The notes under the pieces were generated by a model. The model was not told the DNA's origin. It searched no databases and was given only the letters and a program-made list of their open reading frames with translations. Positions 497 to 13,247 of a stretch of DNA of 58,007 nt are shown here, piece by piece. Within the stretch, counting starts at the first letter, position 1, and every line of letters starts with the position of its first letter. Origin of the DNA: a virus; the IMG/VR virus record IMGVR_UViG_3300010370_000041, positions 1-58,007 of that record; one strand, 5' to 3'. The position numbers and the translations under genes are program-made.

Positions 497-2638
497 ATGG
501 CAACAAGAATGCAACAGCGCAGAGGAACCGCAGCACAGTGGACTGGCGCAAACCCAATTTTAGCAGCAGGTGAAATCGGTTTTGAAACCGATACAGGTAA
601 ATTTAAGATAGGTAATGGATCATCCACGTGGTCAGCCTTAAACTATTATGTAGATGCAAATGCAATTGTCGATGGTGCACCAGGACTACTTGATACTTTA
701 AATGAACTTGCAGCAGCCCTTGGCGATGACCCAGATTTTCTTGCTGATTTAGCACCAAAAGACTCTCCAACATTTATAGGTCAGCCAACAGCACCAACAC
801 CAGACTCAAATGACTCTTCTCAAAAAATTGCAACAACTGCATATGTACAAGCAAAGATTGATTATTTGATTAATGGTGCCCCTGGAGCATTAGATACACT
901 AGGTGAATTAGGTGATGCACTTAATAATGATCAAGCATTTTCAGTAACTGTAACCAATTCTATTGCAGGAAAAGTTGCTAAGAGTGGCGACACAATGACT
1001 GGCGCATTAACTCTTCCTGGAGATCCAACTTCTGATTTAGAGGCAGCAACAAAGGGATATACAGATACAAAGGTTGCTAAAACTGGAGACACAATGACAG
1101 GACCATTATTCCTTTCAGGTGCTCCAACACAAAATTTACATGCAGCAACAAAGGCATATGTAGAATCTTATTCTGATCAATCAGAATCCGATGCAAATAC
1201 CTATGCAGATAGTAAAATCTCTGAACATAATTCTGATACCACAAACGTACATGGAATTGTAGACACAACTTTGCTTGCTACACAAGCAGATATTACAGCA
1301 CATAATAATGATACAACAAATGTACATGGAATTGCTGATACTACTGTATTAGTAACAACTTCTGATTTATCTAGTCATACATCAGCAACAACAAACGTAC
1401 ATGGAATTGCAGATACATTAGCATTGGCTACAAAAACTTATGCTGATGATGCAGTATCAGTACACAATACAGATACAACAAATGTACACGGAATTGCTGA
1501 TACAGCAGATCTTGTTCTTACAGATGATGCTCGTCTATCTGATACAAGAACACCAACAGACAATACAGTTTCAACAGACAAAATTGTTAACTCTGCAGTA
1601 ACTGCAGTAAAACTTGCTGGTGACTCTGTAACAACTGCAAAAATTGAAGATGGCGCAGTAACTTCTGCTAAAATTGCAGACGGAACAATTGTAAATGATG
1701 ATATTAATGCTTCAGCAGCAATTGCACAGTCTAAGATTGCAGATCTCACTACAGATCTTGCTGCAAAGGCTCCACTAGAATCACCAACATTTACTGGTAC
1801 CGTTGCAGGTATCACAAAGTCTATGGTAGGACTTGGAAATGTTGATAACACATCTGATGCTAATAAGCCAGTTTCAACTGCTACACAAACAGCACTTGAC
1901 CTAAAGGCTGACAAGGCAGCACCAACATTTACTGGAACAGTTACAGCATCAAACGACCTTGTTGTTGATGGAAACCTAACTGTTAACGGTACAACATTCA
2001 ACGCATCATCAACATCTATCGTAATTGAAGATAACATGGTTCAACTTGCTCACCAGAATGCTGCTAACGCAGTAGACCTTGGTCTTGTTGTAGCATACAA
2101 CGATGGTGCAGCAAAGCACTCAGGTATCGTAAGAGACGTATCTGATGATAAGTGGAAGTTGTTTAAGGGTGTAACTTCAGAGCCAACAACAACAGTTAAC
2201 TTTGGTCAGGGATCACTTGACAACCTTGCAGTTGCAGCACTTGAAGCAACAACTGTAACCGCTTCATCTGGTGTAGTGTTCTCAGACGGTACACAGACAA
2301 AGGAAGGCGTTCCTTCAAGAACTGCAATTACTCAGGTAACAGCAGCATACAACTTGTCTACAGGTGGTTTAGCACTAAGAGACGGTTTAATTGAAGTTAG
2401 CCATACTGGTGGATCAGCAGTTACATTAACAATTCCTGCAGACTCTACAACTAACTACCCAGTTGGAACATCCATCGATGTTTTGAGAACAAATACAGGT
2501 GGAGTTACAATTGCTGGTGCAGCAACCGTAACAGTTAATGCTACACCAGGCTTAAACCTAAGAGCACAATGGTCTTCTGCAACTCTATTCAAGAGAGCAG
2601 CAAACCTTTGGGTAGTAATGGGCGACCTCTCAGCATAA
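497..2638 (+). CDS. Tail fibre protein with repeated collar and VHGI motifs
   Basis: This 713-residue protein begins with RRGTAAQW...GEIGFETDTGKFKIG (residues about 8-40), the signature of the N-terminal domain of phage tropism-determinant/tail-fibre proteins. ATTAYVQ/ATKGYTD/ATKAYVE motifs recur at about 112, 185 and 217. Four DTTNVHGIADT-type repeats occupy residues 243-334, followed by DDARLSDTRTP, PTFTGTV and GLGNVDNTSD phrases, all common in phage fibres. The C-terminus is Thr/Ala-rich and beta-like. AAGGAG precedes ATG 497 at good spacing. It is likely a receptor-binding or adhesin fibre; the exact virion position is unknown. Confidence 0.82.
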   Translation: MATRMQQRRGTAAQWTGANPILAAGEIGFETDTGKFKIGNGSSTWSALNYYVDANAIVDGAPGLLDTLNELAAALGDDPDFLADLAPKDSPTFIGQPTAPTPDSNDSSQKIATTAYVQAKIDYLINGAPGALDTLGELGDALNNDQAFSVTVTNSIAGKVAKSGDTMTGALTLPGDPTSDLEAATKGYTDTKVAKTGDTMTGPLFLSGAPTQNLHAATKAYVESYSDQSESDANTYADSKISEHNSDTTNVHGIVDTTLLATQADITAHNNDTTNVHGIADTTVLVTTSDLSSHTSATTNVHGIADTLALATKTYADDAVSVHNTDTTNVHGIADTADLVLTDDARLSDTRTPTDNTVSTDKIVNSAVTAVKLAGDSVTTAKIEDGAVTSAKIADGTIVNDDINASAAIAQSKIADLTTDLAAKAPLESPTFTGTVAGITKSMVGLGNVDNTSDANKPVSTATQTALDLKADKAAPTFTGTVTASNDLVVDGNLTVNGTTFNASSTSIVIEDNMVQLAHQNAANAVDLGLVVAYNDGAAKHSGIVRDVSDDKWKLFKGVTSEPTTTVNFGQGSLDNLAVAALEATTVTASSGVVFSDGTQTKEGVPSRTAITQVTAAYNLSTGGLALRDGLIEVSHTGGSAVTLTIPADSTTNYPVGTSIDVLRTNTGGVTIAGAATVTVNATPGLNLRAQWSSATLFKRAANLWVVMGDLSA
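1225..1498 (+). repeat. Four coding repeats (H..DTTNVHGIADT) in the fibre gene
   Basis: Four copies of a roughly 75-85 base unit encode histidine, three to five variable residues, then (A/D)TTNVHGI(A/V)DT. The core acaacaaa(c/t)gtaca(t/c)ggaattg is almost identical between copies, with differences mostly at third positions. This is a coding repeat, not a CRISPR: there are no equal unique spacers and the frame is kept throughout. Confidence 0.85.
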
Positions 2639-2669: not shown

Positions 2670-3734
2670 ATGGCATCAAGCAAAAAGAGAGGTATCAAAT
2701 CCTCAGCACAGGATAATTTCTTACAACCAGATCCCGTAACAGGTTTGAGTGGTACTGATGTTGGAACAAACAGATCATTCGGTAATGGTGCTGTTAATTT
2801 ATCTTGGTCTTTGCCTGCCACTTCTCCTGCAGCAACTTCATATACTATTACAACTTCACCAGCAACAACAACTGTAACTACTGGTAACTCAAACACCTCT
2901 TATACATTTACTGGTTTAGCAGCAGGATCTTACACATTTACTGTAGTTGGCACAAATGCTGCAGGTACGGCAAACCCAACAACTAGCGCATCAGTTGATG
3001 TAACTACCGTTCCAGGAACTCCAACTGGTGTAAGTGCATCTGCAACATCAGCAAATACTAATACTATATCTTGGACTGCCCCAGCAACAGGTGGTAAAGC
3101 CATCACTTCCTATACAATTACTGGTTCTGACGGATCAAGTTATACAGGTATTTCTGCTGGAGCAACATCATATGCTGCTAATGACCCAGGAGTAAACCCA
3201 GGATCTCAGACATACACAATTGTTGCTATAAATGCTAATGGTACAGGTGCAGGTGCCACTACTGGCTCTGTTACAACTACCCCGCCATTCTTCCCATTCT
3301 TCCCACCATTCTTCCCACCATTCTTCCCATTTTTCCCACCATTCTTCCCACCCTTCTTCCCATTCTTCCCACCATTCTTCCCACCCTTCTTCCCATTCTT
3401 CCCATTCTTCCCACCGTTCTTCCCATTCTTCCCATTCTTCCCATTCTTCCCACCGTTCTTCCCATTCTTCCCATTCTTCCCACCGTACTTCGTACCACCA
3501 TTCTTCCCACCGTTCTTCCCATTCTTCCCATTCTTCCCACCGTACTTCGTACCACCATTCTTCCCACCATTCTTCCCATTCTTCCCATCGTTTACAGGTT
3601 CTTCACTAACCTATTGCCCGACACTGGGTCGTAACGTACCGACATCTGGATATCCAGGAAACTGCCCAGGTATGAGATTCGATGAAGACTCTTTACAAAA
3701 TGGAGGAGAAATTCCAGGATCTCAAGTTTGGTAA
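2670..3734 (+). CDS. Fibronectin type III protein with Phe-Phe-Pro repeat tract
   Basis: This 354-residue protein has two fibronectin type III-like domains at about residues 20-108 and 110-202 (NLSWSLP, SYTITTSP, YTFTGLAAGSYTFTVVGTN; TISWTAP, SYTITGSDG). Residues 205-306 are a low-complexity tract of FFP and FFPP units with two YFVPP interruptions. The C-terminal tail holds two cysteines (TYCPTL, GNCPG). AAGGAG precedes ATG 2670. FN3 domains are common on phage tails and capsids, so a virion-surface role is likely. The FFP tract matches no family I recognise. It is the last gene before the oxygenase island, which makes it a candidate modification substrate (inference). Confidence 0.75.
   Translation: MASSKKRGIKSSAQDNFLQPDPVTGLSGTDVGTNRSFGNGAVNLSWSLPATSPAATSYTITTSPATTTVTTGNSNTSYTFTGLAAGSYTFTVVGTNAAGTANPTTSASVDVTTVPGTPTGVSASATSANTNTISWTAPATGGKAITSYTITGSDGSSYTGISAGATSYAANDPGVNPGSQTYTIVAINANGTGAGATTGSVTTTPPFFPFFPPFFPPFFPFFPPFFPPFFPFFPPFFPPFFPFFPFFPPFFPFFPFFPFFPPFFPFFPFFPPYFVPPFFPPFFPFFPFFPPYFVPPFFPPFFPFFPSFTGSSLTYCPTLGRNVPTSGYPGNCPGMRFDEDSLQNGGEIPGSQVW
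3282..3587 (+). repeat. TTCTTCCCA-type repeat tract coding (FFP)n
   Basis: About 300 bases are built of 9- and 12-base units (ttcttccca, ttcttcccacca). The tract is almost pure pyrimidine on the + strand and encodes about 26 Phe-Phe pairs separated by one or two prolines. A 57-base unit encoding YFVPP plus FFP units occurs twice, starting at 3486 and 3543. Phe is TTC in all but one codon although the genome is AT-rich, which points to expansion by unit duplication or to strong codon selection. Confidence 0.9.
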
Positions 3735-3750
3735 AATAAAAATATAAAAG

Positions 3751-3787
3751 TTATACCACATCAATAATATGGTGTGGTATAATTTTT
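3751..3787 (+). terminator. Hairpin terminator, 3' arm containing a -10 box
   Basis: A perfect 10-base inverted repeat, ttataccaca (3751-3760) and tgtggtataa (3773-3782), with a 12-base loop, is followed directly by ttttt. This fits a rho-independent terminator for the fibre genes. The 3' arm also contains TGG-TATAAT, so the element may end one transcript and start the next. Confidence 0.65.
3778..3783 (+). promoter_or_regulatory. Extended -10 promoter of the oxygenase island
   Basis: TGG-TATAAT is embedded in the 3' arm of the preceding hairpin, 36 bases before ATG 3820, leaving a short leader with an aaggga ribosome binding site at about 3809. It is the only promoter-like element before the first oxygenase gene, and the genes that follow overlap or nearly abut. 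Confidence 0.55.
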
Positions 3788-3819
3788 ATATAGTGTTTTT
3801 TTGATGCAAGGGAGTAATT

Positions 3820-4542
3820 ATGAATATTTATGATGAAAATTCTAATCCATGGTTTACAAAAGATAGATCAGAAACAGCATCTAATAGAATGAATATAAAA
3901 ACAATATCAAACAATATCATTGTTGAAAATCCAGGATTAGGCTTAAATGTATATAGAAATGTTTTCTCAAAAGAAGATTCTGAAAGATATATATCTATAC
4001 TTGAGTCAAACTTAGGTGGTAACGGCAAATATGTTTGGTCAGAGGCTCAGGTAACAAACTCAAATACGCCAATTAAAAGAGCAAGGGATTGTGTTGATTT
4101 TAAATATAAGCAAGAAAATTTAGGTCCAAGAGATGAGCATAACGCAGAACTTATTGATCTACATCAAGAGATATATGAAAAGTTAAAATTTTGTGTAGAT
4201 GATTATGCTAGGTATTGGGGCATTAATGTTATTTATTATGAAGCCTTTAACTTTGTAAAGTATGAGGGCGAGGGCAAACACTTCAATATTCACGCAGATC
4301 ATGGTCCAGCATATAATGCTACTGTTTCTGCAGTTATATATATTAACGACGACTACGAGGGCGGAGAGATACAATTTCCAAGACTAGATGGCTATACTCT
4401 TACCCCAAAGGTTGGAGATATTGCTATCTTTCCATCTAACTACATTTATGAGCATGCATCTTTGCCAATGAAAAGCGGTACAAAGTATTGCGTAGTTATT
4501 ATGACTGACATTAATGAGTTAGGTCATAAACATGTCGTTTAA
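3820..4542 (+). CDS. 2OG-Fe(II) oxygenase 1 (prolyl-4-hydroxylase-like)
   Basis: This 240-residue protein ends in a complete 2-oxoglutarate/Fe(II) dioxygenase core: iron ligands H158 and D160 (NIHADHG), a YINDDYEGGEIQFP strand-turn, distal ligand H212 (YEHASLP) and K222 as the likely 2-oxoglutarate carboxylate ligand (SGTKYCVV). Family members hydroxylate protein side chains or small molecules using O2 and 2-oxoglutarate; the substrate here is unknown. It shares RDCVDFK and the core with the oxygenase at 5315, so the two are close paralogues. Its end overlaps the next gene by 11 bases. It is first in a seven-oxygenase array just after the Pro-rich repeat protein. Confidence 0.88.
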   Translation: MNIYDENSNPWFTKDRSETASNRMNIKTISNNIIVENPGLGLNVYRNVFSKEDSERYISILESNLGGNGKYVWSEAQVTNSNTPIKRARDCVDFKYKQENLGPRDEHNAELIDLHQEIYEKLKFCVDDYARYWGINVIYYEAFNFVKYEGEGKHFNIHADHGPAYNATVSAVIYINDDYEGGEIQFPRLDGYTLTPKVGDIAIFPSNYIYEHASLPMKSGTKYCVVIMTDINELGHKHVV

Positions 4543-5305
4543 TCTTGCTATATTTAAATCATACAGGCCGTGGCTTAATAAAGAAAGTGCATCTGTTCCA
4601 GTGCCAACACAAGATGTTATACCACAATGGTATAAAGAAGCAGATAGATTTGCAAAAAATCCTTTTACAAATGAATATTATAAGGCACCTAAAGAGGTTT
4701 GTCCTTTTCCAAAAGAAGGCACTGTAGACGACTACGGAAAGATTCCTACATGGAAAGCATGTCCAGCAATAATGGATGCTTTTATGACTGGGTATGTTTT
4801 CAAAACTCCTTGTGACATAACATTTTTTAAAGATAGTCGTGGCGTAATTAGTGTTAAGGTTAGTGACCCAAGATGTAATGATTTTGTAAGTTATAGACCA
4901 CCCATGCCACAGTTTGAACACCCTAAAGGATTTTATAAAGATCATTTTGCATGGATGCCAGATTGGGGATTAGAATTACCAGAAGGATATAGTGCTTTAT
5001 TTATGACCCCAATGAATAGGTTTGATTTACCATTTATAAATACAACTGGAGTTGTTGATTCAGATAAGGTCGGTATTTTAGGAAGTTTTCCATTTTTCAT
5101 AGCAGAAGGTTGGGAAGGAACAATACCTGCAGGCACTCCATTTTTACAGGTATTGCCATTTAAAAGGGAAAACTGGGAGCATAATATTGAAATTTTAGAT
5201 CAGTCAAAGATATATGCTAAAATGGTAGATAACGCAAACTTTTATCGTCAACCAGATGGCGGGGTATATAAAAGTAAAATATGGACAAGAAGAGAGTATA
5301 AATAG
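4532..5305 (+). CDS. DUF6065-like protein 1
   Basis: This 257-residue protein is of unknown biochemical function. The phrases MTPMNRFDLPFINTTGVVDSD and TIPAGTPFLQVLPFKRENW resemble a family of phage and bacterial proteins I know as DUF6065. The name is from memory and should be confirmed. It has no signal peptide or membrane segment. It overlaps the first oxygenase and is followed nine bases later by a second one. Its homologue at 5998 sits in the same place behind the second oxygenase, so oxygenase and DUF6065-like protein look like a functional pair, perhaps enzyme plus substrate-handling partner (inference). Confidence 0.6.
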   Translation: MSFNLAIFKSYRPWLNKESASVPVPTQDVIPQWYKEADRFAKNPFTNEYYKAPKEVCPFPKEGTVDDYGKIPTWKACPAIMDAFMTGYVFKTPCDITFFKDSRGVISVKVSDPRCNDFVSYRPPMPQFEHPKGFYKDHFAWMPDWGLELPEGYSALFMTPMNRFDLPFINTTGVVDSDKVGILGSFPFFIAEGWEGTIPAGTPFLQVLPFKRENWEHNIEILDQSKIYAKMVDNANFYRQPDGGVYKSKIWTRREYK

Positions 5306-5314
5306 GAGCAACAC

Positions 5315-5998
5315 ATGAAAACATGGACAAGTAAAGAAAATCTTGGTAGCGGTATAACTTGCTATAGAGGTGTTATAAATAAAGATATAGACACCATTAA
5401 TAGATTAGAAAATATATTAGGAGAAGTTGCTCCATATGGCGAACTTTCTCCAGACGGGAAAAGATATCATTGGAACCCAGCATATGTTGGATATCAGCAA
5501 CTTATGCCAGAGTATAGAGATTGTGTGGATTTTAAGTTTAAAAAAACTGATATCGAAAGTGATACCTCTGAAGAGTCTTTAAAATTACAGGCATTGTGGC
5601 AAGATATTTATGATGTTCAGTTTCCAGCAGTAGAAGATTATAGAAGAGACTATAACATTATGGATTTAAAGTATTGGGAGGCGTTTAACTTTATAAAGTA
5701 TGGTCCAGGACAACACTTTCAAGAGCACCATGATCATGGATTTTCGTACAATTGTACAGTCTCACTTGTAGCATATGTTAATGATGACTACGATGGAGGA
5801 GAGTTGTTTTTTAGATTACAAAATTTAAATATAAAACCTCAAGCAGGAGATCTTTATATTTTCCCTTCAAACTATATGTATCCTCATAGAGCAATGCCAG
5901 TACACTCTGGAACAAAGTATTCTATAGTGACTATGCTAGACTACAGTGGTAAATATCATACTCCAGATATGTATGATCCAAAGTGGGCAAATGAGTAA
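5315..5998 (+). CDS. 2OG-Fe(II) oxygenase 2 (paralogue of oxygenase 1)
   Basis: This 227-residue protein has its iron-binding triad at H138, D140 (EHHDHG) and H191 (YPHRAMP), with K201 in SGTKYSIV as the 2-oxoglutarate ligand. YVNDDYDGGELFF and RDCVDFKFK match oxygenase 1 closely. AGGAGC precedes ATG 5315. It ends one base into the next ATG (overlapping TAATG), so translation is coupled. The substrate is unknown; the prolyl-hydroxylase-like fold suggests hydroxylation of a peptide or similar ligand. With the following gene it repeats the two-gene arrangement of 3820-5305. Confidence 0.88.
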   Translation: MKTWTSKENLGSGITCYRGVINKDIDTINRLENILGEVAPYGELSPDGKRYHWNPAYVGYQQLMPEYRDCVDFKFKKTDIESDTSEESLKLQALWQDIYDVQFPAVEDYRRDYNIMDLKYWEAFNFIKYGPGQHFQEHHDHGFSYNCTVSLVAYVNDDYDGGELFFRLQNLNIKPQAGDLYIFPSNYMYPHRAMPVHSGTKYSIVTMLDYSGKYHTPDMYDPKWANE

Positions 5999-6705
5999 TG
6001 TTTAATATTAAGGTAGAAAAAACTCCAGATTCAATTTTTAATATAAATCCAATGTCTATAAAAAGAGATTGGATGGACGATACATCAGAGAAACATGCAT
6101 ATAGGTGTTTTCCAGTAACACAGGCAAATGTAATAGGCTGGAATCTTTCTTGTACAGAAGATATAATTTTTATGTGGGATGGCATTAATGATCGAACCGA
6201 TCAGCATGTTCAGATTACAAGTCCAAAAGGCTCTTATGGGGGAAGAGGTCAGTCTTCTATAAGCCTAAATACTGGATTAATTTTTAGAACAGATAAAGAT
6301 GTTAGTTTATGGACAATCAATCCAGTTAACTACTTTAATGATGATTTTGAAACTTTATCTAATTTAATAAGTACTTCATTTTATGATAATCCATTACCTT
6401 TAGCAATTAAGGCTAGACGAGCAAATGAAGAAGTAATTATTAAATCAGGAACCCCAATTGCTACAATTATACCAATATCTCTGGCTAATCTTAATAATAC
6501 TTCAATTGAAATATTTGATTATTCTGATTTAGATCAATCAAGAAATAAAGCAAACATGGAATATGGAAAAGCAGCACAGGTAGTAAATTCTTCAGGTCAA
6601 TGGACTGATTGGTACAGAGATGCTGTAAATGAAAAAGGTGAGTCTCTAGGATCTCACGAAGTAAAAACATTGAGGCTATCTGTAAAAGATAATAGGATAC
6701 GGTGA
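5998..6705 (+). CDS. DUF6065-like protein 2
   Basis: This 235-residue protein carries YRCFPVTQANVIGWNLSC near residue 40 and IKSGTPIATIIPISLANL near residue 160. The second region aligns with the IPAGTPFLQVLPFKRENW region of the product at 4532, so I regard them as divergent homologues (DUF6065-like; name from memory). The function is unknown. It starts in the stop of oxygenase 2. Its TGA stop forms the TG of an extended -10 box (TGA-TATAAT) that probably drives the next oxygenase. Confidence 0.58.
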   Translation: MFNIKVEKTPDSIFNINPMSIKRDWMDDTSEKHAYRCFPVTQANVIGWNLSCTEDIIFMWDGINDRTDQHVQITSPKGSYGGRGQSSISLNTGLIFRTDKDVSLWTINPVNYFNDDFETLSNLISTSFYDNPLPLAIKARRANEEVIIKSGTPIATIIPISLANLNNTSIEIFDYSDLDQSRNKANMEYGKAAQVVNSSGQWTDWYRDAVNEKGESLGSHEVKTLRLSVKDNRIR

Positions 6706-6711
6706 TATAAT
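6706..6711 (+). promoter_or_regulatory. Extended -10 promoter inside the oxygenase island
   Basis: TGA-TATAAT begins with the stop codon of the preceding gene and ends only three bases before the first of three consecutive ATG codons (6715, 6718, 6721). A transcription start 6-8 bases downstream would fall on the second ATG, so the mRNA is probably leaderless. There is no Shine-Dalgarno sequence here. Confidence 0.5.
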
Positions 6712-6714
6712 ATT

Positions 6715-7473
6715 ATGATGATGCCAGAAGAAGCAGTTACTGTAGTAAGAAAGCCATCCATAACTCCATCAGGATTTTTTGGTAGCGGTCCAGAAAATAT
6801 AATTGAATTAGAAAATTTTATGACTGAAGAAGAGGTTAATTTTTTAGATAAAGCAGCAAGAAGCATCACTGTTTGGGATGTAACGCAAAGTCATAGAAAT
6901 GAAAATGGAACAATAATTTATGATGCTGGGTTTTGGAAGGATAGGGTTGCAAGTGCACCGTCTTTAAATGAAAATGATCCAAGAATTGTTCCTGTTATCG
7001 TAGGTCTGTTTAATAGACTACAGCCAATTATCGAAGACTTTTTTAAAGTAAAAGTTCGTCCGACTGGACAAACAATTGTAAAGTGGAACCCAGGTCAGTT
7101 CCAAATGCCACATGCAGATAAAGAGTTGCATCAAGGAAAAGATGCTGGATTGCCAAATGACTTTCCTAATTATGATATAGCAAGTTTGTTCTATATTAAT
7201 GACGATTATGAGGGCGGTGAATTATACTTTCCACATCAAAAAATTCAATTTAAGCCAAAAAGAGGATCGGCATATTTTTTCCCAGGCGATATGAACTATG
7301 TGCATGGAGTTACTGAGGTGCAGAAATCAATGAGATACACCTGTCCATTTTTTTGGGAAATTTTAGAGCATACTGGAGAAGTTAAGCCAGATTTTTCTAA
7401 AAAGTATAATAGAATTTTCCCTACAGATGAAGAAATATCTAGTTGGGATCCTAGAAGAGGTATAAAAAAATGA
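6715..7473 (+). CDS. 2OG-Fe(II) oxygenase 3
   Basis: This is a 252-residue protein counted from the first of three ATGs; 6718 or 6721 may be the real start if the transcript is leaderless. The triad is H133, D135 (PHADKE) and H197 (YVHGVTE), with R207 (MRYTCPFFW) as the 2-oxoglutarate ligand. YINDDYEGGELYFP marks the family. It uses Arg where oxygenases 1 and 2 use Lys, and its N-terminal half is different, so it is a separate lineage. It overlaps the next gene by four bases (ATGA). The substrate is unknown. Confidence 0.88.
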   Translation: MMMPEEAVTVVRKPSITPSGFFGSGPENIIELENFMTEEEVNFLDKAARSITVWDVTQSHRNENGTIIYDAGFWKDRVASAPSLNENDPRIVPVIVGLFNRLQPIIEDFFKVKVRPTGQTIVKWNPGQFQMPHADKELHQGKDAGLPNDFPNYDIASLFYINDDYEGGELYFPHQKIQFKPKRGSAYFFPGDMNYVHGVTEVQKSMRYTCPFFWEILEHTGEVKPDFSKKYNRIFPTDEEISSWDPRRGIKK

Positions 7474-8225
7474 ATTTAACTAATAAAAATAGAATAACAA
7501 AAGATATAGTTATTTACGAAAATTTTATTGATAAGGATGTTGCTGCTAAGTTAGTCAATGTTTTAGACAAGCATGCAAAATTAGGCACAATTAACTGGAT
7601 GCCAATATCATTCTACGAATCATATTCTTCGGTTTTGCCACAAGATGACGATGAGCATGTTATTGCAGAAGGTTTGCCTGCAGATATATTTTCACAAATG
7701 AAGCAAGGCATTATTGAGGCAGTTGCAAGTGTTCATGACCTTGACCCAAAGATAATTTCTCAAATTGGATACCATACTCAAAAATGGGAGCCAGGCGCTT
7801 ATGCAAGAAAACATTCTGATAATACAGATGAGCACGGAAAATCTGGAGCATTTACAAGAAGTAGATATGCTGCGTTTTTATATCTAAACGATAATTTTGA
7901 GGGCGGATTATTACAATTTCCAGATCAAGACATAACAATACAGCCTAAAGTTGGAATGCTTGCCGCATTTGACGGTGGATTTAATAATATGCATGAAGTA
8001 ACCCTAATCACTAGCGGGGTTAGATATACAATAGGTTCATTCTGGGATGATCGTGAAGAAGATGCATACCCACAAGAACTCAGAGATGCCTGGGCTAAAG
8101 AGATGGAAGAAACCAGAGCATATCAAGAAAAAGAAAGAGCAGAATGGCAGAGTCTTTTAAAAGAAGGATATAAGATAGATATAAATGGAAATAAGTATAG
8201 AGTTGAGGATAGTCTAAATGATTGA
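7470..8225 (+). CDS. 2OG-Fe(II) oxygenase 4
   Basis: This 251-residue protein has triad H115, D117 (RKHSDNT) and H175 (NMHEVTL), with R185 in GVRYTIGSFW. YLNDNFEGGLLQFP is the family phrase. The C-terminal 60 residues are charged and helical (repeated Glu/Lys/Arg), extending past the catalytic core. It overlaps both neighbours by a few bases and is surely co-translated. Active-site residues are intact, so it should be catalytic; the substrate is not predictable from sequence. Confidence 0.87.
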   Translation: MNLTNKNRITKDIVIYENFIDKDVAAKLVNVLDKHAKLGTINWMPISFYESYSSVLPQDDDEHVIAEGLPADIFSQMKQGIIEAVASVHDLDPKIISQIGYHTQKWEPGAYARKHSDNTDEHGKSGAFTRSRYAAFLYLNDNFEGGLLQFPDQDITIQPKVGMLAAFDGGFNNMHEVTLITSGVRYTIGSFWDDREEDAYPQELRDAWAKEMEETRAYQEKERAEWQSLLKEGYKIDINGNKYRVEDSLND

Positions 8226-8877
8226 AAACTTAAAATCAATACTCAAACAAAATAATATTCAATTTGATGAAATTACTGATGAACTAATTTCTATAGACAA
8301 CTACTTAACCGATGAAGAATTAGATTTTATATGGGATAAAATAAACTCATCTGTTCAGGCTGACTGGGAAATTGAATACATGTCAAATTTAAAAAATTTC
8401 TGCATGGAAAAATTTGGTAGAGATGATGTAGATAATTTAGTTGCAGAGGGAAAGTTTGAAATTACTCAAAATTGGTATGACAAAAACCTAAATATTAGTC
8501 ATTATCCAGAATATAGAATATTTTACGAACGTCTAAACTCTATGATAAGAGAGTCTGATAAAGATTTAGAATTAAGCGGATTTGCAACAATACAAAGAAT
8601 GCAGCCTGGAGTTGAACTAAAATCTCATACAGATCAGCATACTGATCCATCAATTAAGTATGCAGCAATTTTATATATTAATGATGACTATAAAAAAGGT
8701 GAGTTATTCTTTAAAAATCTTAATCTAAAGTTACGGCCAAATCCTAAATGCTTATTGATTTTTCCAGGAAACGAAAAATATGAGCATGGAGTAGAGCATG
8801 TTGCTGAAGGTCCAATACGGTATGTTCTTGTCGGTTTTATAAAAGAAGTAGGTCACTACATAAGAAATAGGTATTAA
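8218..8877 (+). CDS. 2OG-Fe(II) oxygenase 5
   Basis: This 219-residue protein, the shortest of the array, has triad H137, D139 (KSHTDQH) and H190 (YEHGVEHV), with R201 in IRYVLVGF. YINDDYKKGELFFK departs from the EGGE phrase of the others (KKGE), a change in the loop beside the iron site that may alter substrate choice. The start overlaps the previous gene by eight bases. The gene ends ten bases before the next start, which has its own AAGGAG site. Confidence 0.86.
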   Translation: MIENLKSILKQNNIQFDEITDELISIDNYLTDEELDFIWDKINSSVQADWEIEYMSNLKNFCMEKFGRDDVDNLVAEGKFEITQNWYDKNLNISHYPEYRIFYERLNSMIRESDKDLELSGFATIQRMQPGVELKSHTDQHTDPSIKYAAILYINDDYKKGELFFKNLNLKLRPNPKCLLIFPGNEKYEHGVEHVAEGPIRYVLVGFIKEVGHYIRNRY

Positions 8878-8887
8878 AGGAGACAAT

Positions 8888-9619
8888 GTGAAAAGAGAGA
8901 TACTAGATCCAAAAGTATATTATTATACAGACGCTATTGATAATTTTGATGTGTTTGAGCAAACACTAAAAGAATTAGATAATATTGAATATAAAAATGA
9001 TTTTAATGTAAACATTTGGAATCCTTGGACATCGTCTAATGATAAAAATTTTATTTATGGAGAAACTAAAACTTTTGATCTTAATGCAATCAATAGTATT
9101 AAAAATGAAGTAGGAGAAAAAAGCAAATATATATATGATGCGGTAATGAATACCTTTTATAATGTTTGCAAAGATTATGCAGAATCTCTAGGAGATTTTG
9201 ACGAACCAAGACTTTTCCCAACATTTAATATTAAAAAATACTATAGCGGTATGGCAATGGGTGCACATTTTGATCAACTAGATGGAGATAAAACTTTAAG
9301 ATATTCTCTAGTTATGTATTTAAATGATGACTGCGAAGGCGGAGAAATATCTTTTCAATTAAAAGATTATGATGGTGGTTGGAATAGCCAAGATGGGTGG
9401 GTGCGTGGAGCACCAGCAGTAGACTTAGATTATGATTTAGCAGTTGCAAATAAAAGTATAGATTTTGGTGTTAAGCCAAAAGCAAATAGTGTTATTATAT
9501 TTCCAGCAGATGCTCCCTACTTTCACACAGCACATACAGTCAAATCTGGTGTAAAATATATGGTTCCAGGACATTGGATACATAATAGTATGGAACTTAA
9601 TCGGCACGAGGGAATGTAG
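8888..9619 (+). CDS. 2OG-Fe(II) oxygenase 6
   Basis: This 243-residue protein starts at GTG 8888 behind AAAGGAG. Iron ligands are H127, D129 (GAHFDQLD) and H213 (YFHTAHTV), with K223 in GVKYMVPGHW. YLNDDCEGGEISFQ carries a cysteine in the conserved turn. Between turn and distal histidine it has an insertion of about 35 residues (GGWNSQDGWVRGAPAVDLDY), longer than in its neighbours, which could shape a different substrate pocket. The gene ends on the first base of the next GTG start. Confidence 0.86.
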   Translation: MKREILDPKVYYYTDAIDNFDVFEQTLKELDNIEYKNDFNVNIWNPWTSSNDKNFIYGETKTFDLNAINSIKNEVGEKSKYIYDAVMNTFYNVCKDYAESLGDFDEPRLFPTFNIKKYYSGMAMGAHFDQLDGDKTLRYSLVMYLNDDCEGGEISFQLKDYDGGWNSQDGWVRGAPAVDLDYDLAVANKSIDFGVKPKANSVIIFPADAPYFHTAHTVKSGVKYMVPGHWIHNSMELNRHEGM

Positions 9620-10467
9620 TGAAAGATTTCGATATAGAGAAAATTCATCAAACTATATGGGTTTTTAAAAATGCATTTAAAAATTCAGATAGATTAATTG
9701 ATTATGTTAATAATAATAAAGAGTGGACTGATTGGTATACCTTTGGCACTAAGGCTCAAGTCACTGGATTTATATATAGGTTTAATAACTTTCCAAGTTT
9801 AGAAGAGTGGCAAAATAAAAATACAACTGATGAGGCAAGTAATATAAACTTTAATGATCTTGAAAATGAAATTAATGATTTATTTTATGAGACCACAAAA
9901 CTTTATGTTGAAGGCAATAATATATCTTTTGATAATTGGATATACCAAGGGTGGGATTTAGCAAAATATAATGCAACGCCAGATTCAGAAGGTGACTATG
10001 TTATGATGCATCATACAGACTTTCAGAGAAATGTTGCATATTCTCCAGGAGAAAAATTTGGAATAACGGCAGTATTCTATTTAAATGATAATTATTCTGG
10101 TGGCGAGGTAATGTATAGATTTTTAAATGATAAAGATATCAATATAGTTGAAGAAGATTATATGTATAAGCCACAAACAGGAGATATTGTGGTTTTTATG
10201 TCAGGTCATCCTCACTACCACGGAGTAAAGATAGTAACTGAGGGAGAAAAGTATATTATAAGGAATTATTGGAGATATGATTATTCAGGGCACCCACTTT
10301 GGCTTAAGTTAGAAGAAAAACATGGAAAAGAACTTTGGAAAGAAAAAGAAAAAGAAAGAAAAAAATTTAACGAAAATCCACAAAATATGACAATTATTAA
10401 TAATATTCCATTTTGGGTTTCTTTTGAAGATTATTACGAAAAAGATATAAAGGATATAGAGATATGA
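9619..10467 (+). CDS. 2OG-Fe(II) oxygenase 7
   Basis: This 282-residue protein, the longest of the array, starts at GTG 9619, overlapping the previous stop region. The triad is H132, D134 (MHHTDFQ) and H201 (HYHGVKI), with K211 or R215 as the 2-oxoglutarate ligand (GEKYIIRNYW). YLNDNYSGGEVMYR is the family phrase. A Lys/Glu-rich C-terminal segment follows the core. It overlaps the dehydrogenase start by four bases (ATGA), which ties the array to that enzyme. Confidence 0.86.
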   Translation: MKDFDIEKIHQTIWVFKNAFKNSDRLIDYVNNNKEWTDWYTFGTKAQVTGFIYRFNNFPSLEEWQNKNTTDEASNINFNDLENEINDLFYETTKLYVEGNNISFDNWIYQGWDLAKYNATPDSEGDYVMMHHTDFQRNVAYSPGEKFGITAVFYLNDNYSGGEVMYRFLNDKDINIVEEDYMYKPQTGDIVVFMSGHPHYHGVKIVTEGEKYIIRNYWRYDYSGHPLWLKLEEKHGKELWKEKEKERKKFNENPQNMTIINNIPFWVSFEDYYEKDIKDIEI

Positions 10468-11129
10468 AAACTGCTATTGTTACAGGAGCAAGTAAGGGTG
10501 TGGGCTATGCAACAGTTAAACTTTTATCTGAAAATGGCTATAAAGTAATTGCGCTCTCTCGTAACTTAACAAAAATTTCTGAATTAGTATGTGAAAATGT
10601 TGAGGTTTATCAATTAGATATAACTCAACCAAATGCAATAAAAGAATTTTATGAAAAATATAAAGATATTACTTTAGATCTTTTGGTTAATAATGCAGGA
10701 GGCGGTTCAGGCCCAACTAATATAATAAAAGAAACAATGGATAACTTTAGAATCGCATATGAAATAAATGTATCTGGACCAATGTATCTTTCTCAACTTT
10801 TTGTTCAGTCAATGCAAAAGTCCAAGTCTCCAACTATTATTTTTGTCAGTTCTCTTGGAGGAAAATTTGCTTATCGTGGTGGCGGAAATTACACTAATGC
10901 TAAGAGAGGAATGATGGCTCTTGTGGACACTATGAGGTTAGAATTTCCAGATTACGGAATTAAAGTAACTGAAATTTGTCCAGGAACAATAGATACTCAG
11001 TTAGAAAAAAGAGATATTGCTGTAACAGCAGAAGATATAGCAGAATGCATTAGATGGGTTTCAGAACTACCAAGTCATGTTAATATAAATCATATAGAGA
11101 TAAACCATTTGCTTAGTGGCAAATACTAA
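10464..11129 (+). CDS. Short-chain dehydrogenase/reductase
   Basis: This 221-residue classical SDR has the nucleotide-binding TGASKGVG at residues 7-14, NNAG at 76-79, and catalytic S130, Y143 and K147 (YTNAK). ICPGTIDTQL after the active site is also typical. Members oxidise alcohols or reduce carbonyls with NAD(P)(H); the second glycine-motif residue pattern does not settle the cofactor. It overlaps the last oxygenase by four bases and ends the island. A reasonable inference is that it converts a hydroxyl made by an oxygenase to a keto group, or supplies a substrate. No direct evidence names the compound. Confidence 0.9.
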   Translation: MKTAIVTGASKGVGYATVKLLSENGYKVIALSRNLTKISELVCENVEVYQLDITQPNAIKEFYEKYKDITLDLLVNNAGGGSGPTNIIKETMDNFRIAYEINVSGPMYLSQLFVQSMQKSKSPTIIFVSSLGGKFAYRGGGNYTNAKRGMMALVDTMRLEFPDYGIKVTEICPGTIDTQLEKRDIAVTAEDIAECIRWVSELPSHVNINHIEINHLLSGKY

Positions 11130-11216: not shown

Positions 11217-13247
11217 ATGTCAGATTTTTTTAGTTTTCGTTTGTCCGAAGAGTTCATAAGTGAGTATAAAACAAAGGAACCTCCATTTGGTTTTGCAGAT
11301 GCAGGTGGTAATTCATTAGGAGAGATTACATTTATTCGTACCTATTCCCGAATGAAGGAAGACGGAACTAAAGAAAGATGGTATGAGGTTTGTCGTCGAG
11401 TAATCGAGGGTATGTATTCTGCACAGAAGAATCACGCAAAAGAAAACAGACTACCATGGAACGATTATAAGGCTCAATCATCTGCCAAGGAAGCCTTTGA
11501 TAGATTGTTTAATCTAAAGTGGACCCCACCAGGACGAGGCCTATGGTCTTTTGGCACGGGACTTACAATGGAAAAGAAAAACTCTGCAGCACTACAAAAC
11601 TGCGCTATGGTATCTACAAAAGACATTGATAGAAACGATCCAGGTCAACTATTTGGCTGGGTCATGGATGCTCTAATGATGGGTGTAGGTGTAGGGTTTG
11701 ATACTTTGGGCGGGGAGAAAAAACTTTCTATTTACAGTCCAACAGAACCACCACAAGTATATGAAATTCCAGATACTCGTGAGGGTTGGGTAGAATCTGT
11801 TAGATTATTAATTAATTCATTTTTAAAGCCTAATATGTATATTCAGGAGTTTAACTATGACCTTATTCGCCCTCTAGGAGCACCTATTAAGGGTTTTGGA
11901 GGCACAGCAAGCGGTCCTGCACCACTTATCCAGTTGCATAAGCAGATAAGGGCTGTAATCGGCGGGAGAGCAGGAGAGACCCTTGATTCAAGAGCAATAG
12001 TAGATATTGTTAATCTTATTGGCACCTGTGTGGTATCAGGAAATGTTAGAAGATCCGCAACCCTGGCTTTAGGTAATGCTGATGATCAAGACTTTATGAA
12101 TCTTAAGAATTCTGAGGTTTTTCCAGAAAGAAATTCATTTGATCCAGAAAATCCAGGATGGGCATGGATGTCAAATAATTCGGTTTCTGCGACGGTAGGT
12201 ACAAAGTACGAAGACTATGTAGACCTTATCGCTAATAACGGAGAACCTGGTTTTATATGGTTAGATGTAGCAAGAAATTATGGGCGTTTAAAAGATCCAG
12301 CAGACGGCAAAGATTATCGTGTCATGGGCTTTAACCCCTGTGCTGAACAACCATTGGAATCATATGAACTATGTACCTTAGTTGAAGTACATCTAAATCG
12401 CCATGAGTCTAAAGAAGATTTCTTGCGGACATTAAAGTTTGCATATTTGTATGGCAAGACGGTAACACTGATACCAACGCACTGGCAACAGACAAATGGA
12501 ATTATGCAGCGTAATCGTCGTATTGGTACATCATTGACAGGAATTGCTTCATTTTCAGACAAATTTGGTTTGCCTGTTGTGCGTGAATGGATGGACGAAG
12601 GATATGAGACTATTCGTAAATATGATCATTCATATTCTGAGTGGCTATGCGTTCGTGATTCCATTAGAGTCACAACTGTTAAACCATCAGGGTCTGTATC
12701 AATTCTTTCTGGCGCAACGCCTGGAGTTCACTGGGCACCTGGCGGAAATTATTTCTTGAGAGCAATTCGTTTTGGGAATACCGACCCAATGATTCATCTG
12801 TTCAAGGCTGCTGGATATAAGATGGAGGCTGACCTTGTATCTGCGAATACAACTGTCGTATATTTCCCAGTACATTCTGGCCACGCAAGATCTGAAAAAG
12901 ATGTAACATTATTTGAGAAGATTGCGCTTGCTGCTACTGCTCAGAAATACTGGTCTGATAATGGCGTGTCTGTAACGCTTTCATTTGACAAAGAAACTGA
13001 AACCAAGCATATTGCGCCTGCACTTCATATGTACGAAGGACAACTAAAAGCAGTATCATTCTTGCCGATGGGAAATAAGGTGTATCCGCAACAGCCATAC
13101 ACTGAAATTACCGAAGAAGAATATAACAGTTATATTGGTCAAATTAAGAAGATCGACTGGTCTGCTATTTATGACGGAGCAGAAAATCTGGAAGCACAGG
13201 GCGAAATGTACTGTACCACAGACGCTTGCGAAATAAAAATCTCTTAG
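11217..13247 (+). CDS. nrdJ: Class II (adenosylcobalamin-dependent) ribonucleoside-triphosphate reductase
   Basis: This 676-residue monomeric-type RTPR reduces ribonucleotides to deoxyribonucleotides for DNA synthesis. Visible residues: C129 (QNCAMVS), C375 in NPCAEQPLE as the thiyl-radical cysteine, C386 (YELCTLVEV) as redox partner of C129 with the expected 11-residue spacing, and a C-terminal C666/C671 shuttle pair (YCTTDAC). SGNVRRSA and TVKPSGSVSILSG complete the barrel motifs. The length is close to the Lactobacillus enzyme. It needs host or environmental B12. It sits alone behind its own palindrome and promoter, away from the replication block. Confidence 0.95.
   Translation: MSDFFSFRLSEEFISEYKTKEPPFGFADAGGNSLGEITFIRTYSRMKEDGTKERWYEVCRRVIEGMYSAQKNHAKENRLPWNDYKAQSSAKEAFDRLFNLKWTPPGRGLWSFGTGLTMEKKNSAALQNCAMVSTKDIDRNDPGQLFGWVMDALMMGVGVGFDTLGGEKKLSIYSPTEPPQVYEIPDTREGWVESVRLLINSFLKPNMYIQEFNYDLIRPLGAPIKGFGGTASGPAPLIQLHKQIRAVIGGRAGETLDSRAIVDIVNLIGTCVVSGNVRRSATLALGNADDQDFMNLKNSEVFPERNSFDPENPGWAWMSNNSVSATVGTKYEDYVDLIANNGEPGFIWLDVARNYGRLKDPADGKDYRVMGFNPCAEQPLESYELCTLVEVHLNRHESKEDFLRTLKFAYLYGKTVTLIPTHWQQTNGIMQRNRRIGTSLTGIASFSDKFGLPVVREWMDEGYETIRKYDHSYSEWLCVRDSIRVTTVKPSGSVSILSGATPGVHWAPGGNYFLRAIRFGNTDPMIHLFKAAGYKMEADLVSANTTVVYFPVHSGHARSEKDVTLFEKIALAATAQKYWSDNGVSVTLSFDKETETKHIAPALHMYEGQLKAVSFLPMGNKVYPQQPYTEITEEEYNSYIGQIKKIDWSAIYDGAENLEAQGEMYCTTDACEIKIS

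Follow-up and report, generated by a model that had tools for sequence, protein, structure and literature searches.

Between the tail-fibre gene fib1 and the gene for a class II ribonucleotide reductase (RNR), the uncultivated virus record IMGVR_UViG_3300010370_000041, analysed here over its whole 58,007 bases (hereafter the window), carries a gene for a putative stalk protein that ends in a long tract of Phe-Phe-Pro units (FFP and FFPP). This is followed by an array of seven 2-oxoglutarate (2OG)-Fe(II) oxygenases resembling prolyl 4-hydroxylases (P4Hs), two DUF6065-like proteins (D1 and D2) and a short-chain dehydrogenase/reductase (SDR). We propose, with a probability of roughly 70%, that this slot encodes a virion stalk of low-complexity aromatic repeat together with its post-translational modifiers, here for hydroxylation of FFP(P) at multiple sites, much as in the pathways for ribosomally synthesized and post-translationally modified peptides (RiPPs). 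Somewhat less confidently, though still as the likelier case, we suggest that stalk repeats and enzymes form an interchangeable system, in which FFP, FGA, FTPFG, FSPFGV, PYSF and HYGF repeats are swapped in one slot with dedicated cassettes (the P4H array, DUF6065 proteins, an unannotated family T and, in some, sulfo- or glycosyl-transfer genes). Every repeat protein of a genome, including unlinked ones with PASTA domains, would then be of the same type, and each repeat would give rise to a distinct modified polymer.

The FFP stalk gene and its oxygenase array

The array is a single tightly packed, operon-like run in the order ox1-D1-ox2-D2-ox3-ox4-ox5-ox6-ox7-SDR (3820–11129), after which comes the RNR gene (Table 1). 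A preliminary description of this DNA spoke of seven consecutive oxygenases with two DUF6065-like proteins and an SDR; profile matches bear out all of these proteins, with the qualification that D1 and D2 are interleaved among the oxygenases. Each of the seven passes the PF13640 cut-off (37–57 bits against 27; E 8e-9 to 4e-15) and, as had been noted, is intact in its H-x-D...H motif and in its 2OG ligand, which is Lys in ox1, ox2, ox6 and ox7 and Arg in ox3, ox4 and ox5. Across sets of 14–124 orthologous sequences, the metal ligands are virtually invariant. Eight of the nine enzyme groups found in this and related loci (ox2 to ox9) are each monophyletic and are therefore distinct enzymes that have long been maintained; the tree does not settle the monophyly of ox1, because the outgroup roots inside it.

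A model of ox1 (pLDDT 89) has the double-stranded beta-helix fold of solved P4Hs, and its nearest structures, PHD2 and P4Hs at E 1e-10 to 1e-8, include an algal P4H, the PPHD/EF-Tu complex (4iw3) and vCPH of PBCV-1; for this enzyme the earlier suggestion of a prolyl-hydroxylase-like fold is thus upheld. Profile comparison of ox1 with solved structures retrieved Bacillus anthracis P4H, LH3, P3H1 and a mimivirus-type lysyl hydroxylase. Judged by sequence profile and model, then, its closest solved relatives are peptidyl hydroxylases throughout, and its nearest relatives in phages are PF13640 proteins of cyanophages and pelagiphages (phrog_61, phrog_81 and phrog_2297).

The tract itself is 102 residues long, and its gene lies, as first described, directly 5' of the array. 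The tract is no frame artefact, since it is in frame with the fn3 domains, uses mixed synonymous codons, and has counterparts in a total of 145 distinct tracts. These comprise 2,778 units, of which 1,328 are FFPP and 1,185 FFP; Tyr takes the place of the first Phe in approximately 200 units and of the second Phe in a single one, a pattern of strict constraint at the protein level. The FFP and FFPP units contain no Gly, and do not have the Gly-X-Y pattern of collagen-like P4H substrates. The promoter linkage once claimed for the array is not supported: 47 promoter-like sites were counted where 46.7 are expected, and a strong terminator-like hairpin (3743–3790) separates the stalk gene from ox1. 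Such a hairpin could hold expression of the enzymes below that of the structural protein.

The tract and the array keep company across related phages. The records are mostly fragments, and the loci are related to one another; they were gathered independently by three routes, with D1, with a DNA pattern for PFFPPFFPFFP or with very divergent D2 sequences as the starting point. Among 80 loci found through D1, 63 have the FFP tract, 14 are too short upstream, and three have about 1 kb upstream, one of them showing the edge of an FFP tract. Starting from the DNA pattern, array genes occur within 6 kb downstream (≤6 kb) in 81 of 89 testable loci, and when whole records were checked for the eight exceptions and most of the truncated loci, every record above 17 kb except one had 1–13 PF13640 genes. 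Loci whose D2 is only about 19% identical to that of the window have the order FFP-ox1-D1-ox2-D2-ox3-ox4-ox6-ox9 wherever the sequence reaches. No array whose upstream gene could be read was without an FFP-type tract, so that the case named by the preliminary description as refuting its idea, related phages with the array but without a Pro-rich protein, was not encountered. Two apparent exceptions were dismissed: one locus (G060) whose array appeared to lack FFP has a tract of YFPP units that the exact pattern missed, and another (L165) with FFP beside RNR and no adjacent array has six PF13640 genes elsewhere in its record.

We call complete the 54 non-redundant loci that extend 8.5 kb or more downstream. 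In these, ox1, ox2, ox3, ox4, D1 and D2 are always present (54/54), ox6 is present in 52 and ox5 in 41, and ox7, ox8, ox9 and SDR are optional, such that the number of oxygenases per locus ranges from five to nine. Phage genes are often duplicated in tandem, and this variation in number could be taken to mean that the array is a chance cluster or a relic of duplicated oxygenases decaying without joint function. However, the near-invariance of the catalytic residues across hundreds of sequences, an order kept across divergent clades and a core found in every complete locus already contradict that explanation, which we regard as scarcely credible.

The FFP pattern was matched seven times in 84,980 bacterial and archaeal genomes, six of these by chance in other contexts. 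The seventh match is a 5.3-kb contig (L202, JAFMJX010000128.1) in a metagenome-assembled genome of the Chitinophagaceae that carries an FFP gene and the array; it is probably viral and was binned with the bacterium.

Table 1. Features of the slot and its borders in the window; fractions give occurrence among complete loci.
Feature	Position	Strand	Support
fib1, tail-fibre protein, 5' of stalk gene	497..2638	+	PHROG tail-fibre matches to 1e-27; conserved neighbour in relatives
Stalk gene (354 aa): two fn3 domains, FFP/FFPP/YFVPP tract, variable C-terminal tip; proposed substrate	2670..3734	+	Pfam fn3 6e-13; tract-bearing homologues in relatives
DNA coding the FFP(P) tract: FFP/FFPP units and two YFVPP	3281..3587	+	tandem repeats; unit counts over 145 tracts
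Terminator-like hairpin (20 bp) with T-run	3743..3790	+	consensus match only
ox1, P4H-like 2OG-Fe(II) oxygenase, H158 D160 H212 K222	3820..4542	+	PF13640 3e-11; fold nearest PHD2/P4Hs; 54/54
D1, DUF6065-like, predicted dUTPase-like beta-clip fold	4532..5305	+	phrog_7084 4e-32; 54/54
ox2, P4H-like 2OG-Fe(II) oxygenase, H138 D140 H191 K201	5315..5998	+	PF13640 4e-15; 54/54
D2, DUF6065	5998..6705	+	PF19541 5e-29; 54/54
ox3, P4H-like 2OG-Fe(II) oxygenase, H133 D135 H197 R207	6715..7473	+	PF13640 2e-9; 54/54
ox4, P4H-like 2OG-Fe(II) oxygenase, H115 D117 H175 R185	7470..8225	+	PF13640 3e-9; 54/54
ox5, P4H-like 2OG-Fe(II) oxygenase, H137 D139 H190 R201	8218..8877	+	PF13640 8e-9; 41/54
ox6, P4H-like 2OG-Fe(II) oxygenase, H127 D129 H213 K223	8888..9619	+	PF13640 2e-9; 52/54
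ox7, accessory 2OG-Fe(II) oxygenase, H132 D134 H201 K211	9619..10467	+	PF13640 2e-10; 8/54
SDR, accessory	10464..11129	+	PF00106 2e-40; 26/54
Class II RNR, outside the system, downstream edge of slot	11217..13247	+	phrog_367 6e-142

Exchange of repeats and enzymes in the slot

Phages with a capsid protein 80–97% identical to that of the window are often without FFP. Three of them keep the fn3 gene with a tract of (FGFTPFGAFG)n or (FGA)n, and in these the array is replaced by two to three tandem family T genes or by a single DUF6065 gene. For a survey unbiased toward either repeat or enzyme we used the RNR gene as anchor, with repeat classes set by pattern counts and enzyme classes by profiles built for this analysis; the start of fib1, MATRMQQRRGTAAQW, is kept in relatives and served as a marker of the slot. 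This gave 44 non-redundant loci with a readable slot. All 14 with FFP have the P4H array, all 24 with other aromatic repeats have other cassettes (DUF6065 only in 12, T only in nine, both in three), and the six slots without an aromatic repeat are without enzymes (6/6); none of the 44 falls outside this pattern. Sister phages may thus differ in both repeat and enzymes although their RNRs are almost identical. In a larger, partly enzyme-selected set, from which finer counts were taken, the pairings were FGA with DUF6065 (12/12), FSPFGV with T (9/9), HYGF with DUF6065 plus T (12/12), FFP with the array (13/13) and PYSF with DUF6065 (2/2, one also with a sulfotransferase). On the RNR tree the class of slot changes approximately 19 times, approximately 12 of these between the FFP array and the rest, counts that are rough because branches within close clades are poorly resolved. 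As in RiPP clusters, the putative tailoring enzymes adjoin the precursor gene and co-vary with its core.

Away from the slot, many of these genomes encode another repeat protein, which often has a PASTA domain. Both tracts are readable, at distances of 6 to 48 kb, in 12 genomes, and in 11 of these the second protein matches the stalk in repeat type (FFP in seven, FTPFG in two, FSPFGV and PYSF in one each). When 28 more records were searched for PASTA domains, nine additional second tracts were readable, all matching, and four proteins had no clear tract, which brings the agreement to 20 of 21 genomes and four repeat types; as the genomes are related, these are not 20 independent events. The match is what would be expected if the enzymes of a genome set which repeat is usable there.

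These pairings bear on the possibility that the array synthesises or alters either a small molecule or a glycan of the host surface, its adjacency to the stalk gene reflecting exchange of the slot as a block between phages. Stalk and cassette are adjacent, and recombination would swap both; some other cassettes contain GT2, epimerase or sulfotransferase genes, and about half of the arrays have an SDR. However, simple linkage does not explain the pairing, because unlinked proteins share the repeat type of the stalk, slots that lack an aromatic repeat also lack enzymes, and the solved structures nearest to ox1 are those of protein hydroxylases. Given the pairing of repeat and cassette in particular, we consider a metabolite or glycan pathway unlikely. 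Less likely again is that the oxygenases act on other proteins of the virion or host (fib1, EF-Tu or other fibres), the FFP protein being a co-selected partner and not the substrate. Bacterial P4H-like enzymes can act on EF-Tu, as in the complex 4iw3 to which the ox1 fold is matched, and several fibre genes flank the array; yet fib1 is present under every cassette type, whereas the set of enzymes tracks the type of repeat.

Among the other cassettes, one with a sulfotransferase accompanies the Tyr- and Ser-containing PYSF repeat and others with GT2 and epimerase accompany HYGF repeats (L366:8394-9176, L449:6443-8559), which suggests sulfation or glycosylation of these repeats. Family T (L344:12950-14244; L346:14856-16851; alignment A3) comprises 82 distinct sequences of approximately 215–240 aa with strictly conserved His and Arg residues, and may represent a new family of tailoring enzymes. 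By eye its conserved W-H-x-H, GHxH and R-x-T motifs look 2OG-like, resembling PF13759, but a 2OG enzyme was not supported by Pfam, PDB or hhalign. In two loci (L006 and L007) a 333-aa radical-SAM-like protein (CNVGCWFCPVR) is inserted between the FFP gene and ox1, and is possibly a further tailoring enzyme.

The stalk proteins vary in how they end. Extreme C-terminal variability, often with a short Cys-rich segment, e.g. GGCTCGYCWRCSVCCPGRSCGC, is seen in the FFP-protein tips of L018, L021, L039, L052, L062 and L064, as expected of a region that may contact receptors. Many stalk and PASTA repeat proteins carry a Hint/intein-like C-terminal domain with a Cys at its start and an end of the form ...WFIAGDYLVHNK (examples are L025:2142-3494, L119:2140-3861, L148:3566-6481, L344:14293-15516, L346:16900-18180 and L563), and some FFP stalks are without it. 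This domain suggests that the end of the stalk cleaves itself or becomes covalently attached.

A proposed modification scheme

From gene content, intact catalytic residues, the fold class of ox1 and the pairing of repeats with enzymes we infer a substrate, a chemistry, a timing, a virion location and a benefit, as follows. The stalk repeat would be made in the infected cell and then modified by the enzymes of its cassette before assembly. For FFP these would be the P4H-like core ox1–ox4, nearly always ox6, and accessory oxygenases, with two DUF6065 proteins and sometimes the SDR. Paralogues could differ in which position of the FFPP unit they hydroxylate; its C-H sites (Pro C3 and C4, Phe C-beta) are about as many as the enzymes. 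The DUF6065 proteins would serve to bind the substrate or to present it, and not to hydrolyse nucleotides. Since Phe makes up about half of the tract before modification, hydroxylation would alter both solubility and stiffness, and the adhesion fibre may thereby gain a stalk that is stiffer and more compatible with water and that carries the variable tip. The preliminary description had already raised hydroxylation of the repeat by the array; the idea passed every comparative test that we ran and is strengthened by the pairings in sister phages, while the virion location, the hydroxylation and the atom concerned are predictions.

Several points weigh against this proposal. Both the presence of the FFP protein in the virion and peptidyl-proline hydroxylation by the array are predicted from sequence. 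One FFP record (G005, a 38-kb fragment) has no PF13640 gene, and in one genome with an FFP stalk (G046) the unlinked repeat protein is of the (PTF)n type and does not match. The presence of accessory enzymes (ox5, ox7–ox9 and SDR) shows no clear relation to the composition of the repeat, with nominal p values of 0.007 and 0.01 in two cases, both lost under multiple testing. FTPFG repeats occur with T (11 loci), with a larger mixed cassette (nine) or with DUF6065 (one) in the larger set, and one-to-one pairing is therefore limited to FFP, FGA, FSPFGV and HYGF. For family T, neither Pfam nor PDB gave a match, and there was no profile match (hhalign) to the ox families. Finally, in the nearest precedent, chlorovirus PBCV-1, an unpublished analysis mentioned in a review (reference 162 in PMC7019647) found no hydroxyproline in virions; the chlorovirus P4H was characterised on peptide substrates.

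The DUF6065 proteins raise the further possibility of DNA or nucleotide modification, in which dUTPase-like DUF6065 proteins and TET/JBP- or AlkB-like oxygenases would feed the adjacent RNR. D1, which has no Pfam match, is homologous to D2 (hhalign 3.6e-6), and its model (pLDDT 92) is nearest, though weakly (E 2e-3), to dUTPase and dCTP deaminase. In a profile alignment (hhalign E 0.05) GVVDSD of D1 falls in register on the dUTPase motif GIIDSD, a likeness confined to a motif-3/4-like segment. The RNR gene next to the array, a halovirus DUF6065 relative that adjoins thymidylate synthase, and a sub-threshold Tet_JBP match of ox3 point the same way. Against this, D1 has Lys where motif 3 of dUTPase has its base-stacking Tyr, ox1 is best matched, in fold and in sequence, by protein prolyl and lysyl hydroxylases, RNR is kept whether the cassette changes or is absent, and the array has neither a glycosyltransferase nor a kinase for hypermodified DNA. 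We therefore hold this possibility to be very improbable. Neither D1 nor D2 has a Pfam match to dUTPase (PF00692), and D1 probably has a beta-clip fold and no dUTPase activity; a role as substrate binder or trimeric scaffold is conceivable. The prediction (4532–5305, with the homologous D2 at 5998–6705) offers a possible structural hint for the uncharacterised Pfam family DUF6065. Given the fold result, profile matches of DUF6065 to viral nucleoprotein structures (E 0.002) were taken to be spurious. Some DUF6065 relatives, among them that of halovirus HCTV-6 (L204) and those in L230 and L231, have neither oxygenases nor aromatic repeats nearby.

Known systems and genome context

In the glycosylation islands of flagellins, pilins and S-layer proteins, a variable surface structural protein is adjoined by cognate modification genes, mostly glycosyltransferases; the slot described here resides in a phage and contains mostly oxygenases and DUF6065 proteins. 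Post-translational modification of phage fibres is, to our knowledge, hardly known, and we know of no phage with six to nine oxygenases dedicated to one repeat. The chemical finishing of a phage stalk by matched enzymes, which our results suggest, would thus not have been described before in phages. RiPP clusters resemble the slot in that an encoded core lies beside dedicated tailoring enzymes, apparently matched to it and exchanged with it as a unit, but here the presumed modified repeat would stay within a large structural protein. In place of a short leader-bearing precursor that is released and exported there is an fn3 protein of 250–650 aa that has a tip at its C-terminus. Among the cassette genes none was recognised as encoding a protease or an exporter, and no RiPP recognition domain (RRE) was seen in the cassettes, in the course of work that included no search aimed at RREs.

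Collagen prolyl and lysyl hydroxylases, the viral enzymes (PBCV-1 vCPH and mimivirus lysyl hydroxylase) and B. anthracis P4H share fold and catalytic residues with the array enzymes. These known enzymes act on repetitive, Pro-rich or collagen-like proteins, and the P4H of one virus family has been tested on viral Pro-rich peptides. In those systems one enzyme serves Gly-X-Y or Pro-rich repeats, whereas the array places six to nine paralogues and two DUF6065 proteins beside a Gly-less FFP tract and, unlike them, is exchanged along with its repeat for other repeat–enzyme pairs.

The preliminary description knew of no phage with seven such oxygenases. Number alone is not the novelty, because cyanophage S-SCSM1 has 24 2OG oxygenase genes, described as auxiliary metabolism (PMC9602691), as are the eight kinds in pelagiphages (PMC9599517); P4H genes have also been noted, with use unknown, in Baltic Sea viromes (PMC9301287). 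What does stand is that no published repeat-dedicated array was found, nor, in a literature mostly outside subscription journals, any paper on FFPPFFP in a phage context, on DUF6065 or on repeat–cassette pairing. The cyanophage and pelagiphage enzymes belong to the same PF13640 family, several per genome, and are regarded as auxiliary metabolic genes or ferrochelatase partners without a repeat substrate; those of the array have a fixed order and are tied to one repeat type. Our proposal would thus offer a concrete function for at least some aquatic-phage 2OG oxygenases now classed as auxiliary metabolic genes, and a functional context for DUF6065 and family T. If true, it suggests a new route by which receptor-binding structures diversify, and the slot would represent a natural library of repeat polymers and of the enzymes that modify each, with multiply hydroxylated Phe-Pro polymers perhaps among them.

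A nucleotide search of annotated phages with the array as query, and searches of annotated phages with the N-terminus of the FFP protein and with D2, returned zero matches, and an isolate was therefore not found. The window is siphovirus-like, encoding portal, protease, major capsid, tape measure and minor tail proteins, along with a helicase, primase, DNA polymerase, UvsX and RuvC. The family consists of environmental bacterial viruses, probably of freshwater habitats. Its host is probably an actinobacterium, since the RNR is 64% identical to that of the lake Actinomycetia phage DSL-LC01 and 61% to that of mycobacteriophage Gaia, the capsid protein resembles that of Streptomyces phages, and PASTA domains occur in the repeat proteins.

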